Positions 47,246-59,147 of a DNA stretch of 64,000 nt are shown here, piece after piece. Every line of letters begins with the position of its first letter. Positions within the stretch are counted from its first letter, which is position 1. The notes beneath the pieces were generated by a model. It saw only the letters and a program-made list of their open reading frames with translations. It searched no databases and was not told the DNA's origin. Origin of the DNA: Gemmatimonadaceae bacterium (GTDB lineage Bacteria > Gemmatimonadota > Gemmatimonadetes > Gemmatimonadales > Gemmatimonadaceae); contig JACDCY010000002.1 in assembly GCA_013817305.1 (NCBI GenBank), positions 1 through 64,000 on the forward strand. Reading direction: 5' to 3'. A program made the translations under genes and the position numbers.

Positions 47246-48613
<1,368 letters not shown>

Positions 48614-48626
48614 GCTGACCCGGAAA

Positions 48627-48926
48627 TCAGCGGGAAGCGGCGGACCTGTCGGCGCCGGCGGGCAGCGCGCCCGCCTGGTGCCTTCCTTCCGATAGAAGCT
48701 GGGTCGTAAATCGCTGCCCTTCGGAGATGCGCTCGACTTCGATCGAGATCGCGTCCACGGCCTGCTCGATGCGCTCGAGCCGGCCGAGCACTTCCGGTGG
48801 AATCGCCGAGCGGATCGGCTGCTTGTCCATGCGTCTGGCCAGCGCTCTGGCGATCGGGTGGAATACGAATGTGAATCCGATCACGACGAACAGGACTATC
48901 GGGATCAGCTCGCCTGGAATGTTCAT
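48627..48926 (-). CDS. small membrane protein with coiled-coil tail
   Basis: The 99-residue protein has one N-terminal transmembrane helix (IPIVLFVVIGFTFVFHPIA) followed by a basic loop and a heptad-like helix (LGRLERIEQAVDAISIEVER). I do not recognise it. It is encoded between the histidine kinase and the response regulator with gaps of 7 and 13 bases, so it is in the same operon and may modulate signalling at the membrane. The ATG at 48926 is preferred over the preceding TTG. Confidence 0.7.
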   Translation of the reverse strand: MNIPGELIPIVLFVVIGFTFVFHPIARALARRMDKQPIRSAIPPEVLGRLERIEQAVDAISIEVERISEGQRFTTQLLSEGRHQAGALPAGADRSAASR

Positions 48927-48933
48927 CAATGAT

Positions 48934-50193
48934 TCATCCTGTCGCGTATGGGGCGGACCCGGCCGCCGGCGTCATCCGGGCGACGGGCAGCGTGATGTCG
49001 ATCGTGGTTCCCTCGCTCACGCGGCTCGACCCGGAAACGCTCCCGCCGTGCGCGAGCACGGTCTGCCGCGCGATGGCGAGTCCGAGGCCGGTTCCGCCCG
49101 GCTTGTTCGTAATATACGGCTCCCAGATGGTGTCGAGTTTCTCGGGAGATATTCCGCAGCCGTTGTCGACCACCGAGATCCGGACGAGCTTCTCGCCACC
49201 TGCGTGCTCCGTGGTCACACGAACCGAGATTCGCCCCGTTCCGGCACACGCTTCTACCGCATTGATGAGAACGTTCGACAGCGCGCCGGCGAGCGCATCG
49301 TGGTGACCGTGCACGCGCGGGATGTCGGGCGCGATGTCGAGGTCGAGCGCGAACTCGCGCGGCACGCTCGCGCTCGCGGAGTACCGCACGAGTTCGCCTA
49401 CGTCTATTTCCGCGCTCGTTCCAGCTGGAAGCCGCCCAAACTCGGCGAAGCTCCGCGCCATGCGCTCCAGCCGGCGCGTTTCTGTCTTCAGAACGTCGAG
49501 GCTTTCGGACATCCCGGGCGGCGCGTCGGCGGTGATCCGGTCGAGCGCGAACCGGATCGGCGTAAGTGGATTCTTGAGCTCATGCGCGAACTGCCGGGCG
49601 CTCTCCCGAAGGGTCTGCAACCGCTCCTGCTCGACGGCCTGCCGCCGGCCTTCGGCGATCTCGACTGCCATTCTCCGCATTCGCAGGCGGAGCGTCTCGA
49701 ATTCCGGCGCCCCCTTGCTGCTGGCGGTCTCCGGGAGGGGTTGCCCGCGCGAGATGAGCTCGGCCCACCGGATGAGCTCGTCCAGCGGCCGGCTGAGCTG
49801 CCGGCTGAGGTGCCCCGCGACCTTCGATCCAATCAACGTGAACAGCAACAGCATGACGAGCGCGAGCAATCCGATCACCTGCGCCGCGCGCTCCGTGACG
49901 TACCGCTGACGGAGGGATTGCTCAAGCGACGCACCAAGCTCGCTCTCATGCCTGTCCACGATCCGTCGATCAGAGGCGGACAACGGCCGCTTCCGCGCCA
50001 CCGCTATGACCGCGCGGCCGCTTCTGGTGACGTTATCCCACCCGCCCGAGCCGGTAATCAGCGGCACCGCCGTGCTGACCGTCCCGCTCCACACGAGGGT
50101 AAGGAGCACTGCGGGCGCGAGCGCGAAGGCCAGGAGGATGGCCAGGAGCCGCGTACGGAAACGGGGAGGGCGAGGGGTCAATTTGGGCGCCAA
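48934..50193 (-). CDS. sensor histidine kinase (NtrY-like)
   Basis: The 419-residue kinase has two membrane helices (about residues 15-38 and 105-125), a HAMP-like linker (SRPLDELIRWAELISRG), the phospho-acceptor histidine in ARQFAHELKNPLTPIRFALD, and the HATPase boxes LSNVLINAVEAC, VVDNGCGIS and GTGLGLAIARQTVLAHGG. This is the NtrY-type HisKA arrangement. It begins with a TTG at 50193. It pairs with the NtrC-type regulator downstream in the operon; the signal is unknown, probably periplasmic or membrane-related. Confidence 0.92.
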   Translation of the reverse strand: MAPKLTPRPPRFRTRLLAILLAFALAPAVLLTLVWSGTVSTAVPLITGSGGWDNVTRSGRAVIAVARKRPLSASDRRIVDRHESELGASLEQSLRQRYVTERAAQVIGLLALVMLLLFTLIGSKVAGHLSRQLSRPLDELIRWAELISRGQPLPETASSKGAPEFETLRLRMRRMAVEIAEGRRQAVEQERLQTLRESARQFAHELKNPLTPIRFALDRITADAPPGMSESLDVLKTETRRLERMARSFAEFGRLPAGTSAEIDVGELVRYSASASVPREFALDLDIAPDIPRVHGHHDALAGALSNVLINAVEACAGTGRISVRVTTEHAGGEKLVRISVVDNGCGISPEKLDTIWEPYITNKPGGTGLGLAIARQTVLAHGGSVSGSSRVSEGTTIDITLPVARMTPAAGSAPYATG

Positions 50194-55475: not shown

Positions 55476-55505
55476 TTGCGTTATCGACATGGCAATTCCT
55501 ATATT
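55476..55505 (+). promoter_or_regulatory. candidate sigma-70-type promoter of the histone-like gene
   Basis: TTGCGT at 55476-55481 and TATATT at 55500-55505 are separated by 18 bases, in an AT-rich part of the 357-base gap before the histone-like gene. The leader that follows contains two palindromes: arms CTGCAAC/GTTGCAG at 55554-55574 and a perfect 14-base palindrome at 55590-55603, possible operator sites. Assignment rests on resemblance only. Confidence 0.4.
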
Positions 55506-55589
55506 CGCGTCGATTGCGAACGCAAGCACGCTGTTCGTGCGAGCGACGTGATCCTGCAACGTTCGATGTTGCAGTCGCTGTACTCGCCG

Positions 55590-55603
55590 GTCCACCGGTG
55601 GAC
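55590..55603. promoter_or_regulatory. perfect 14-base palindrome in the histone-like gene leader
   Basis: GTCCACCGGTGGAC reads the same on both strands and ends 35 bases before the start codon. A second inverted repeat (55554-55574, 7-bp arms) lies just upstream. Either could be a protein-binding site or an RNA hairpin near the ribosome binding site. Confidence 0.45.
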
Positions 55604-55637
55604 AGGTGAGCAATTCACTCCTGAATGGAGCGAGACG

Positions 55638-55799
55638 ATGGCAGCCAGAAAGAAGAGCTCGGGCAAGAAGAAGTCCGCGGGCCGCAAGACGGCGCGCAAG
55701 AGCACGGGCCGCAAGACGGCGCGGAAGAAGAGCACCGCCCGCAAGAGCACCGGCCGCAAGACGGCGCGGAAGAGCGCGGCGAAGAAGCGCAAGCGCTAG
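55638..55799 (+). CDS. histone H1-like lysine/arginine-rich DNA-binding protein
   Basis: The 53-residue protein is composed almost only of lysine, arginine, alanine, serine, threonine and glycine, with repeats of TGRKTARK and SAARK-like units. It begins MAARKKSSGKKKSAGRK and ends AAKKRKR. Such proteins resemble histone H1 tails and bacterial Hc1-type nucleoid proteins and should coat DNA or RNA. The ATG at 55638 has GGAG seven bases upstream; the open frame before it is not conserved in character. Two hairpins follow the stop. Confidence 0.8.
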   Translation: MAARKKSSGKKKSAGRKTARKSTGRKTARKKSTARKSTGRKTARKSAAKKRKR

Positions 55800-55867: not shown

Positions 55868-56851
55868 TTAGCGGGAGTATCTCGCGGTGGACAGCTCGAT
55901 GATCTTCTCGATGAGCTGGTCGTACTGCAGGCCCGACTCGGCCGCAGCTCGCGCGAACTCGCTGGCCGCCTCCAGATAACAGTTCGGGTTGACCTCGATG
56001 ACGAAGATCTCGCCGGCGTCCGTGACCCGCAGGTCCACGCGCGCGTAGTCCCGCAGACGCAGCGCGTTGAACGAGTCGATCGCGACCTTTTGCATGGCCT
56101 CGGCCTGCTCTTCAGACAGGTCGGTGGGGAAGACGGATTTCGTCCCGGCGAACTCCGCACCCGATTCGTCACCATCGTCGCCCCACTTCGCGGCCCAGCT
56201 CGCGATGCGCGGCTTGTCGGCCGGAAAGCCGGTGAAGTCGAGCTCGATCACCGGCAGAGCTTCGGGGCTCGAATTCCCGAGCACGCCCACGTAGAACTCG
56301 CGCCCTTCGATGAATTGCTCGACCAGCACGGCCGACTTGTACTCGGTCTGGAGAGAGCTCATTGTATCGAGCAGCTCCTTGACGTCGCGCACCACGGACT
56401 TGCCCGTGATCCCGAGCGACGCGTCCTCCTGCGGCGGCTTCACTATCAGCGGAAACTCGATATCGCCCGCCCAGTCCACGGTGCCGCGGAACACGGTCGC
56501 AAACTTGGGCGTGCCGATTCCATGAAAGGACAGGACTTTTTTGGTGAGCGTCTTGTCGCCCGCGACGATCAGCCCCGCCGGGCTCGAGCCAGTGTAACGC
56601 ATGTCCAGGAGATTGAGCAGCGCGGCGACGTTCGATTCGAGCGCGCTCCTGCCGCCGAACGACTCGCAGAGGTTGAAGAGCAGGTCCGGGGGCGACTGTG
56701 CCAGCGCGGTGACCACCGGCTGCACTTTGTCGTCCACCACGATCGTCGACGGCTCGTGCCCCAGGCGTGCGAGCGATTCCTGGATCTGGGCGAGCACGGG
56801 ATCGAGGGGATCTTCCAGCGCGTCCTGCGTGTGCAGCAGCGTGATCTTCAT
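55868..56851 (-). CDS. ATP-grasp ligase, D-alanine-D-alanine ligase-like
   Basis: The 327-residue protein has an N-terminal Rossmann-like part (LLFNLCESFGGRS, as in Ddl enzymes) and an ATP-grasp domain: the ATP-binding lysine in EFPLIVKPPQEDASLGI, VLVEQFIEGREFYVGVLG, and metal-binding ARVDLRVTDAG and IFVIEVNPNCYLE. In true Ddl the last motif is EVNTxPG, so this is a divergent relative. It should form an amide or ester bond between a carboxylate and a nucleophile using ATP. It overlaps the metallopeptidase gene by four bases and may act on the small peptide encoded upstream. Confidence 0.85.
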   Translation of the reverse strand: MKITLLHTQDALEDPLDPVLAQIQESLARLGHEPSTIVVDDKVQPVVTALAQSPPDLLFNLCESFGGRSALESNVAALLNLLDMRYTGSSPAGLIVAGDKTLTKKVLSFHGIGTPKFATVFRGTVDWAGDIEFPLIVKPPQEDASLGITGKSVVRDVKELLDTMSSLQTEYKSAVLVEQFIEGREFYVGVLGNSSPEALPVIELDFTGFPADKPRIASWAAKWGDDGDESGAEFAGTKSVFPTDLSEEQAEAMQKVAIDSFNALRLRDYARVDLRVTDAGEIFVIEVNPNCYLEAASEFARAAAESGLQYDQLIEKIIELSTARYSR

Positions 56852-57894
56852 TCGGCCGGACGCTCCCCGGTGAAATCGTTAGTGTAGCGGTAGTTCATCA
56901 CGACGGCGGTTCCGAACGCGGTCAGCTCGATCAGAGTGGAAGCCTCGCGCCCCCGTACGGCGAGCTCCAGCGTCTCGGCCCGCTCGGCTACGAGGTCAAC
57001 GAACTTGCGCACGACAGCCGCGGGCTCGCCCGTCCAGTACGCGATGCGTCCCACGATCTCGCGTCGGTGCAGCCTGATGAATTCGCCCGCGTGATCCCTG
57101 TCCGGCATCTCCGAAAGCTTTCCGAACAGCGTCCGCAGGTCCCCGTCGAAGATGCGCGGATCGCTGACCGGCAGTGCGTCATCGATGTCGCGGTAATGCT
57201 CGGCGACCGTGTATTGCATCGCCGTGACCGGGAGGTCGTCGTCGGTCAGCTCCGGCGTGTCCGGCTGAACATCGCCGACTTCGCCCATCACCCTGTCGAT
57301 GTACTCGATTTTCCTGAGCGCGCCCCATCCCTCGTATTCCACGCGCCAGTCAATGCCGGGCGTGAGCCACACGGCGAAAGTCTCGGCGAAATCCTCGTCA
57401 GGATGCTTTTGCGCGTACCAGCCCAGTATGTGCCGCACGTACTGGTGCGTGAAGGGATCGCTCCGGTAACGGTCCTGGTACGGTCGCGAGTACGGTCCGA
57501 ACAGCTCGTGCCAGTCGGCGCGATCGTGCAGCCTGTACGCGTAGTTGAATGCGTGTCCCGCTTCGTGCCGCAGAAACCGCATCACGTCGTTTTCGTTCTC
57601 GATCTCGAACGCGAAGTCTTCCTCGATCCGCGCGAGGCGGGCATCCGCGAGGTAGAAGGGAACACCGATAAGCGGCGTGCCGTCGGGGCAGCCCCATTGA
57701 TCACTCAGGTATACCGGCGGGCGGAAGGTCAGGCCCCGCTGATCGAGCTCGACGTAGAGCTGCGTCACGAGCTTCTCGAGCACGGTGCCCTCGAGAGAGA
57801 GCCCGATATCCGAGATCCGCTGCGAAAGAAGCCGCTCCCGCTCGACTTCCCAGTCGCTGTCAGTGGTCACACGGTCAATATGGGCAATGGTCAT
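56848..57894 (-). CDS. putative zinc-binding metallopeptidase
   Basis: The 348-residue protein has an HExxH zinc helix, FLRHEAGHAFNYAYR, near residue 110, and a downstream acidic helix, DEDFAETFAVWLTPG, about 65 residues later that would supply the third ligand. This is the pattern of a gluzincin-like family annotated as putative zinc-binding metallopeptidase; no signal peptide is present. The C-terminal 130 residues hold no motif I recognise. The ATG at 57894 is preferred to a GTG at 57903. It is translationally coupled to the ATP-grasp gene. Its substrate may be the small peptide encoded just upstream. Confidence 0.78.
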   Translation of the reverse strand: MTIAHIDRVTTDSDWEVERERLLSQRISDIGLSLEGTVLEKLVTQLYVELDQRGLTFRPPVYLSDQWGCPDGTPLIGVPFYLADARLARIEEDFAFEIENENDVMRFLRHEAGHAFNYAYRLHDRADWHELFGPYSRPYQDRYRSDPFTHQYVRHILGWYAQKHPDEDFAETFAVWLTPGIDWRVEYEGWGALRKIEYIDRVMGEVGDVQPDTPELTDDDLPVTAMQYTVAEHYRDIDDALPVSDPRIFDGDLRTLFGKLSEMPDRDHAGEFIRLHRREIVGRIAYWTGEPAAVVRKFVDLVAERAETLELAVRGREASTLIELTAFGTAVVMNYRYTNDFTGERPAE

Positions 57895-57910
57895 ACCGCC
57901 CACGGATGCG

Positions 57911-57937
57911 AAAAACCCCGTCGCTCAGGCGACGGGG
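57911..57937 (-). terminator. rho-independent terminator after the 50-codon ORF
   Basis: A perfect nine-base stem (57916-57924 with 57929-57937) around a TCAG loop is followed on the minus strand by five T residues (57915-57911). It lies 52 bases after the small-ORF stop and only 17 bases before the metallopeptidase start, so readthrough would be needed for the downstream genes. This arrangement keeps a small upstream product in excess. Confidence 0.85.
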
Positions 57938-57988
57938 CTCGGTCAAGACGGGGACGGATGGACACCCCTTCCTAATAATAGTAGCGGC

Positions 57989-58141
57989 TCAGGCGGCCCG
58001 GACTTTGGCTGTGGACGTAGCGATGGGCGCGGGCCCCCAAACATACTGGAGGACGACCGGAACCGGCTCGGATCGCTCACCCCGGGAGATAACTATCCCC
58101 ATGGGCTCAAGCGCGTCAGGCTTCAAACTGGTCTTCTTCAT
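57989..58141 (-). CDS. 50-residue peptide, candidate substrate of the adjacent ATP-grasp/metallopeptidase pair
   Basis: An ATG at 58141 preceded by GAGGG opens a 50-codon frame ending in TGA at 57991-57989. The peptide starts MKKTSLKPDALEPMG and continues with a hydrophobic-charged stretch (IVISRGERSEP), then an aromatic segment VLQYVWGPAP, and ends in an alanine/threonine/basic tail. The two-part look (basic start, compact middle with Y, W and prolines) is reminiscent of RiPP precursors or small regulatory peptides. It has its own candidate promoter (58246-58274), a leader with two hairpins and its own terminator. No homologue can be checked here. Confidence 0.6.
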   Translation of the reverse strand: MKKTSLKPDALEPMGIVISRGERSEPVPVVLQYVWGPAPIATSTAKVRAA

Positions 58142-58245
58142 ATGCCCTCATGGGTGCGTTGTTCACACCCCCTAAAGGCACGCCTGGTGCCAGGATGAAT
58201 CCTTTGGCTAACTCCTTGTCACACAGCGTGTTAGGACTTTTACGA

Positions 58246-58274
58246 ACTCTAGCGGGAGACCAAAAATGTTGCAA
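58246..58274 (-). promoter_or_regulatory. candidate promoter of the 50-codon ORF
   Basis: On the minus strand TTGCAA (58274-58269) and TAGAGT (58251-58246) are separated by 17 bases, a standard sigma-70 spacing with four of six matches each. The leader that follows has two compact hairpins: GGCAC/GTGCC at about 58180-58195, and GGGTGTG/CGCACCC just before the ribosome binding site at about 58152-58171. The leader could regulate translation of the peptide. Confidence 0.45.
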
Positions 58275-58310
58275 AACGACACAGTTCTGCTGACTTCCCG
58301 TGTCAAAACG

Positions 58311-59081
58311 TTACGCTGCTGCCTTGCGAGCGAGGAAGCTTCGGGCAGTTCCACTTTCCCGCTCGACGGCGATGGTCCAACCGGTGTACCGGGCGCGCAG
58401 CTCGTCTACCGTGAGCGAGCCCGTCCCGTTCAGGATGGTCTCGAACAGATGCACGCCCCCGGCTTTCGTCGCGTCCTGCAGCAGCCCGATGATGCGGGTT
58501 CTGTCGTGCGGCGTTAGCGACGCGAGACTTTCGCTGGGGCACACAACCGCGGTCAGCGGCTTGGGCGACCAGGTGCCGAGGTCGGCGACGGAAGCGTCGA
58601 TACGCGAGTTGAGGCCCGCGGCCGCCGCCGCGGCGATGACTCGCTCGACGCAGTCTTCTTCCTCATTGATGGCGGTAACCGCGCAGCCGTGCGCGGCGAG
58701 GTAGATCCCGGCGCGCTCGCACTCCGCTCCGGTCACGAGCACGTGCGTGTCGGAGCCGGCCCTGATCTCGCGAACGATGGGTCCGTCCGGCGCGATTCCC
58801 CATGTCTCCGGCTTCCGATACTCGGCGAGGCGCTTGAGTCGCTTGCGCTGCCATGTGCTGAACTTGGGAAGCTTTATCCTGCGCGCGATGAGACGATCGA
58901 CTTCGGCCCAGAGCGACAGCTCTTCAGGCTCGTATTGCGCCTGCGCGCCAAGAACGGCGACGGCTTCGTCCGCGATGCCGAGCAGCGAATTCCGCGAGAC
59001 CGAGTCCTTGTAGCGCTCGATCTCCGATTCGACGTACACCTGGTACTCGTGCTTTAGGGAGCGAAGCATCTGATGCGGCAT
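58311..59081 (-). CDS. hypothetical protein with degenerate methyltransferase-like domain
   Basis: The 256-residue protein has an N-terminal helical, charged part (EYQVYVESEIERYKDSVSRN, then RIKLPKFSTWQRKRLKRLAE). A Rossmann-like second half follows in which THVLVTGAECERAGIYLAAHG stands where SAM methyltransferases have the GxGxG loop, AINEEED stands for the acidic motif, and ASVADLGTW for motif II. The glycine loop is imperfect, so activity is uncertain. The ATG at 59081 has GGAAG upstream; a preceding GTG at 59084 is possible. The stop is 37 bases from the promoter of the 50-codon ORF. Confidence 0.6.
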   Translation of the reverse strand: MPHQMLRSLKHEYQVYVESEIERYKDSVSRNSLLGIADEAVAVLGAQAQYEPEELSLWAEVDRLIARRIKLPKFSTWQRKRLKRLAEYRKPETWGIAPDGPIVREIRAGSDTHVLVTGAECERAGIYLAAHGCAVTAINEEEDCVERVIAAAAAAGLNSRIDASVADLGTWSPKPLTAVVCPSESLASLTPHDRTRIIGLLQDATKAGGVHLFETILNGTGSLTVDELRARYTGWTIAVERESGTARSFLARKAAA

Positions 59082-59147
59082 CACGCTTCCGGAAAATCCA
59101 AAGGTAGGACGGCCGGCGACCTGCGCAAGTAAAATAATCTCACGCGC

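Follow-up and report, generated by a model that had tools for sequence, protein, structure and literature searches.

A conserved small-protein gene of Gemmatimonadota, apparently under sigma-54 control, and its helical upstream neighbour

The locus described here lies on the minus strand of a stretch of 64,000 nucleotides from a Gemmatimonadaceae bacterium (GenBank assembly GCA_013817305.1, contig JACDCY010000002.1, positions 1 to 64,000), hereafter the window. Along this strand, a gene for a 257-aa protein is followed by a gap of 170 nt, a 50-codon ORF, a terminator, a Peptidase_Mx gene, an ATP-grasp gene, tdh and kbl. In the comparisons below, f1 is the window's own family, Gemmatimonadaceae, and f2-f6 and f9 are other family labels in the genome set. 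The main features, each with the evidence on which it was assigned, are:

58311..59084, minus strand: upstream gene, putative partner, 257 aa, with an N-terminal helical domain and a TehB-like methyltransferase domain of altered motif I
about 58845-59066, minus strand: N-terminal helical domain of the upstream gene (AlphaFold; standalone homologues in f4 and f6)
about 58365-58814, minus strand: TehB-like methyltransferase domain of the upstream gene (weak Pfam TehB match; Foldseek)
58266..58304, minus strand: putative enhancer (activator-binding) region (repeat offsets shared with congeners; dyad enrichment)
58178..58192, minus strand: predicted sigma-54 type -24/-12 promoter, TGGCAC-CAGGCG-TGC (GG-N10-GC) (leader scores against controls; rpoN presence)
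57989..58141, minus strand: small protein gene, 50 aa, core EPMGIVISRG...P....YVWGPAP, C-terminal Ala-Ala (homology; selection)
57910..57940, minus strand: intrinsic terminator of the small protein gene (folding energy; kept in congeners)
56848..57903, minus strand: HExxH metallopeptidase-like gene (Peptidase_Mx), optional neighbour (PF15887)
55868..56851, minus strand: Ddl-like ATP-grasp ligase gene, paired with the peptidase gene, optional neighbour (PF07478)

The 50-codon ATG ORF at 57989-58141(-), proposed in the initial annotation together with its SD sequence GAGGGC, was confirmed and is a genuine conserved small-protein gene under selection. A tBLASTn-type search of related genomes, suggested at the time, returned matches in 30 of 60 genomes, far beyond chance, and a profile of the peptide matched 185 of the 395 genomes of the phylum Gemmatimonadota and, within f1, 130 of 140 sampled genomes (counted from the table). 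When named bacterial and archaeal genomes were scanned with a narrow alignment as query, homologues were found exclusively in Gemmatimonadota, mostly under the labels Gemmatimonadaceae or Gemmatimonadetes. In the alignment, a nearly invariant core (EPxGIVISxG...P....YVWGPAPE) lies between a variable N-terminus and variable tails that share no motif; the expected conservation of the middle segment YVWGPAP is borne out, this segment being part of the core. The proposed comparison of synonymous and nonsynonymous changes supports translation, with purifying selection acting at the protein level: pN was below pS in 244 of 244 related peptide pairs, with a median pN/pS of 0.22 that is biased downward by the choice of pairs with at least 75% identity, and the window peptide's own five comparisons gave pS of 0.44-0.65 and pN of 0.09-0.11. 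The peptide has no significant match in Pfam, NCBIfam or PDB, and belongs to a family of tiny proteins that a large part of Gemmatimonadota retains and that is uncatalogued in the libraries searched. The structure model of the 50-mer is of low confidence (pLDDT 68.7, pTM 0.16), and DSSP assigned no secondary structure to it. A second copy of the peptide gene was seen in genome G024 (locus L083, 9461-9682), far from the upstream gene, where it follows another gene directly and lacks a comparable sigma-54 site.

A promoter-like pair previously read at 58246-58274 was not confirmed, as no sigma-70 site was found in 57800-58400. The window carries a -24/-12 element, TGGCACCAGGCGTGC, which meets GG-N10-GC in a TGGCAC/TGC context and which a stringent sigma-54 pattern misses by one base. 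Most loci have such an element ahead of the peptide gene; it is weak in some f4 and f6 loci. Scores of at least 13 were obtained for 28 of 60 peptide leaders and for 0 of 289 control regions, taken upstream of other genes in the same loci, and a rank test of leaders against controls gave p of about 7e-29, which is only indicative because the sequences are related. All 31 genomes checked carry the sigma-54 gene rpoN. Strict sigma-54 matches elsewhere (L252, L256, L260 and L268) precede, by reading, putative flagellar fliL- and flgB-like genes.

Upstream of the -24/-12 promoter, between the upstream gene and the peptide gene, are inverted repeats of the form GTGTC-N5-GACAC, which are putative upstream activator sites. 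They occur at offsets of -122/-112 and -88/-78 in f1 and are mostly single in f2, f3 and f6, and six of seven f4 genomes have the exact dyad at -116 to -98. The hexamer CGTGTC/GACACG is present in 49 of 56 leaders (7.5 expected), and the dyad is enriched at the levels of family, order and class. Searched together as one composite pattern, the repeat and promoter were hit nine times in 60 genomes, and eight of these hits are the peptide promoter. Within the window the repeats are partly degenerate (GACAC at 58300-58304, GTGTC at 58278-58282 and a degenerate second half-site to about 58266), and their offsets of -112 and -90 equal those of congeners. Judged from these motifs, the peptide gene appears to be under sigma-54, enhancer-dependent control.

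A histidine kinase and an NtrC-type sigma-54 activator, the latter a candidate for this control, are encoded at 47246-50193(-), about 8-10 kb downstream of the peptide, and similar kinase/NtrC-type genes occupy the same region in several other genomes. In two f6 loci (L170 and L171), the helical-protein/peptide pair is directly preceded by genes for a PilSR-like kinase and sigma-54 activator. The NtrC-type regulator of the window (47246-48568) was rejected as orthologue of this f6 regulator, with 42% identity against 65% for another copy; in one f1 genome, the orthologue of the f6 activator sits in the type IV pilus locus pilM-Q/pilA (L297). The Pseudomonas PilR site contains GTGTC. This consensus and the PilSR-like genes adjoining the pair in f6 were the reasons for considering PilR, which is not supported as activator because the five local pilA upstream regions inspected are without the GTGTC-N5-GACAC dyad. 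The locus resembles pilA under PilS/PilR in having a -24/-12 promoter, putative activator sites located around -80 to -120 and PilSR-like neighbours in f6, and differs from it both in this lack of the dyad at the local pilA genes and in its product, which is not a pilin.

Behind the peptide gene, the strong terminator noted earlier was recovered as a hairpin with a T-run at about 57910-57940(-) (MFE -22.7 kcal/mol, z -5.1), and the hairpin is conserved in three congeneric genomes. The initial annotation added that a terminator between precursor and enzymes is common in peptide clusters. Here, terminator-like hairpins lie 3' of the peptide in 14 of 28 loci lacking the peptidase/ATP-grasp pair, as against 15 of 560 random windows, and because they are found behind the peptide with and without the pair they are not a cluster feature. 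The claim of a leader with two hairpins fared no better, since the first (GGCACCAGGCGTGCC) is the -24/-12 element, which would lie upstream of the transcript, and the second is not conserved in congeners. A structured leader RNA was rejected on these grounds, and no Rfam match was found in the window.

The 257-aa protein encoded upstream was modelled by AlphaFold (pLDDT 89.9) as four N-terminal helices followed by a Rossmann domain, with TehB (2i6g, E 1.4e-10) as best Foldseek hit and a weak Pfam TehB match. Its C-terminal domain has the fold of TehB-like SAM methyltransferases, from which the protein differs by a degenerate motif I and by the extra N-terminal helical domain, which also exists alone. 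The glycine-rich motif I reads, by eye, VTGAECERAGIYLA in the window and VVGAA... in f2/f3, with the fold retained in the model; the methyltransferase domain is probably degenerate or inactive. Like the small-protein family, the family of the upstream protein appears uncatalogued in the libraries searched.

The upstream gene directly precedes the peptide gene in 29 of the 30 f1 genomes of the first survey, the exception being the second-copy locus of G024, and the same gene order recurs in most f2/f3 genomes examined. In f1-f3 the helical N-domain is fused to the TehB-like Rossmann domain, the arrangement of the window's order, Gemmatimonadales, and the linkage in f1-f3 may in part be ordinary synteny (rlmI-MT-peptide-tdh-kbl). 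In f4 and f6, two distant families, the upstream gene encodes a standalone short protein that matches only the first ~75 residues of the 257-aa protein, and a peptide of the same family follows it in 10 of 10 loci, the core starting 149-375 nt past the stop. Neighbours identified by sequence reading are a putative DNA polymerase III delta gene and a FAD-binding protein in f4, and PilSR-like regulators and a FAD-binding protein in f6. What travels with the peptide across unrelated neighbourhoods of the class is the helical N-terminal domain of ~75 residues. In several f2 genomes the upstream helical protein is retained and no peptide was detected, and the helical domain is absent from the f5 genomes with weak peptide hits. 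A FAD-binding, amine-oxidase-like gene was also seen after the peptide in L328-L332 (f4, f6).

An Ala-Ala end was found in 33 of 48 f1 peptides (about 70%) as compared with 10 of 325 other genes (3%), and in 8 of 10 f4/f6 peptides, the tails of which are otherwise different; none of the f2/f3 peptides seen has it. These genomes encode a tmRNA tag with the end ...ALAA, and in E. coli such an -AA ending marks proteins for ClpXP. By analogy, the small protein is probably short-lived.

The reading that we consider best, with a probability of roughly 0.55, is that of a sigma-54/enhancer-controlled, probably short-lived small protein acting with the upstream helical protein; both this partner role and a dedicated activator are what we infer from the arrangement of the locus. 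Such an enhancer-binding activator would recognise the GTGTC-N5-GACAC repeats that lie just past the end of the upstream gene and would open the -24/-12 promoter, with the conserved motifs and positions reported above, and a short terminated mRNA would then give rise to the peptide. The peptide core (GIVIS-turn-P...AYVWG), which by eye may form a two-strand hairpin, would dock on the helical domain encoded immediately upstream, as suggested by the linkage of the two genes across unrelated neighbourhoods. Its Ala-Ala end, shared with the tmRNA tag of the cell, points to rapid ClpXP-type turnover, and the peptide would act as a transient, signal-dependent modulator of the helical protein. Small regulatory proteins with conditional promoters and ClpXP-type turnover are a known general kind. 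The predicted conditional promoter, the short protein and the -AA C-terminus are in line with it, whereas no sequence relation to a described member was found and the partner is here a presumed one. More tentatively, and with the odds against it, the two genes might form an undescribed regulatory system present in much of Gemmatimonadota, in which the helical protein, fused in one order to an inactivated methyltransferase, would be the receptor, the sigma-54-induced, degron-ended hairpin peptide its ligand, and the activator would be devoted almost wholly to this promoter. If true, an external signal would be converted into a burst of short-lived peptide controlling the receptor. No described system of the kind proposed here was found in the open-access literature. 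Gemmatimonadota are abundant soil bacteria whose regulation is little known. A tiny protein that several families of the class retain, that the Pfam and NCBIfam models searched miss, and whose gene has an exceptionally clear sigma-54 enhancer block beside a constant partner gene offers a specific, testable entry to a signalling circuit of the phylum.

Among the rival explanations, a stand-alone sigma-54-dependent small protein with its target elsewhere, next to the helical gene only through conserved gene order or shared regulatory DNA, survives best and is nonetheless doubtful. The peptide gene's own promoter and terminator would suit it, as would the genomes that keep one gene without the other and the G024 paralogue away from the upstream gene; what argues against it is that the peptide and the helical gene stay adjacent in f4 and f6 though all other surroundings differ.

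Maturation by other enzymes, namely a convergent TldD/TldE protease and/or the upstream methyltransferase-like protein, is unlikely. By reading, both TldE and TldD are encoded near the peptide in 13 Gemmatimonadaceae loci (L054, L056, L057, L072, L074, L079, L081, L086, L178, L180, L183, L189 and L190) and in one f9 locus (L172), with TldE alone in L160 (f3), and E. coli TldD/E cleaves the MccB17 leader (PMC5810440). However, these genes lie on the opposite strand and are absent beside the peptide in most loci, and methylation cannot be a shared step because f4/f6 lack the methyltransferase domain, which also has no canonical glycine-rich motif I. The TldE-/TldD-like genes convergently downstream of the peptide sometimes occur together with the peptidase/ATP-grasp pair.

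This pair was at the centre of the initial annotation, which saw in the locus a modified-peptide cassette, the 50-mer being a precursor trimmed by the HExxH peptidase and ligated by the ATP-grasp enzyme. The two genes were confirmed as described. The product of the HExxH gene at 56848-57903(-), for which an alternative start is possible at the ATG at 57894, has the motif HEAGH and matches PF15887 (Peptidase_Mx, E 4e-7) just over the cut-off, with 30.1 bits for a Pfam gathering score of 27. The overlapping ATP-grasp gene at 55868-56851(-) is Ddl-like (PF07478, E 1e-31, 110 bits), with a marginal RimK match, and fails every curated NCBIfam Ddl cut-off (best 138.8 bits vs 243). In three families the two genes are kept together as a conserved pair in its own right (window 55868-57903, L061-L070), with at least two subfamilies.

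As to the claim that the peptide lies beside both enzymes, it held for 11 and failed for 19 of the 30 peptide-bearing genomes in the 60-genome survey; in those 19 the ATP-grasp of the window's subfamily is absent beside the peptide. Wherever the window-subfamily pair and the peptide share an assembly (11 genomes of the set of 60, and G339), the pair is directly behind the peptide, at a distance of 13-236 nt where adjacent; G034, the exception, has this pair and neither peptide nor upstream gene. A homologue of the window's peptidase is absent genome-wide from 12 of the 30 peptide-bearing genomes, 10 of which are at least 90% complete. The pair also occurs without an adjoining peptide in f1, f2 and f3. 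Two sister families and another two families of the class have the peptide with no adjoining pair, so the peptide is older than its association with the pair. No alignment column separates peptides with the pair from those without (maximum MI 0.57, permutation 95% 0.64).

The cassette is the least probable of the explanations: although the close adjacency in 11 genomes would favour it, and zincin peptidases are known beside some graspetide ATP-grasp loci (PMC8939145), the same peptide, indistinguishable in sequence, is kept without the adjoining pair in 19 genomes and without any peptidase homologue in 12, a terminator separates it from the pair, the ATP-grasp enzyme is Ddl-like, and the conserved part is the middle of the peptide, the window's tail, IATSTAKVRAA, containing no Asp or Glu for a graspetide-type side-chain linkage. 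The pair is a separate module of optional neighbours behind the peptide gene in a subset of Gemmatimonadaceae, and these are probably not the peptide's modifying enzymes. A general role of the peptide as attenuator leader peptide of the pair was rejected because the peptide persists without it.

What the locus shares with graspetide (microviridin-type) clusters is a short ORF with ATP-grasp and metallopeptidase-like genes nearby; the differences are the Ddl-like ATP-grasp, a window tail without acidic acceptors, a conserved segment in the middle and a peptide widespread without the enzymes. In pheganomycin-type systems an ATP-grasp peptide ligase is likewise encoded near the peptide gene, whereas here there is one small conserved protein for which the ligase is optional, the peptide being kept without it. 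The analysis corrects a natural-product reading of the locus that was tempting yet unsupported. Convergent to the ATP-grasp gene, a short Lys/Arg-rich histone H1-like ORF with a weak HC2 match was seen at 55476-55799 (+), and it is found in congeners too.
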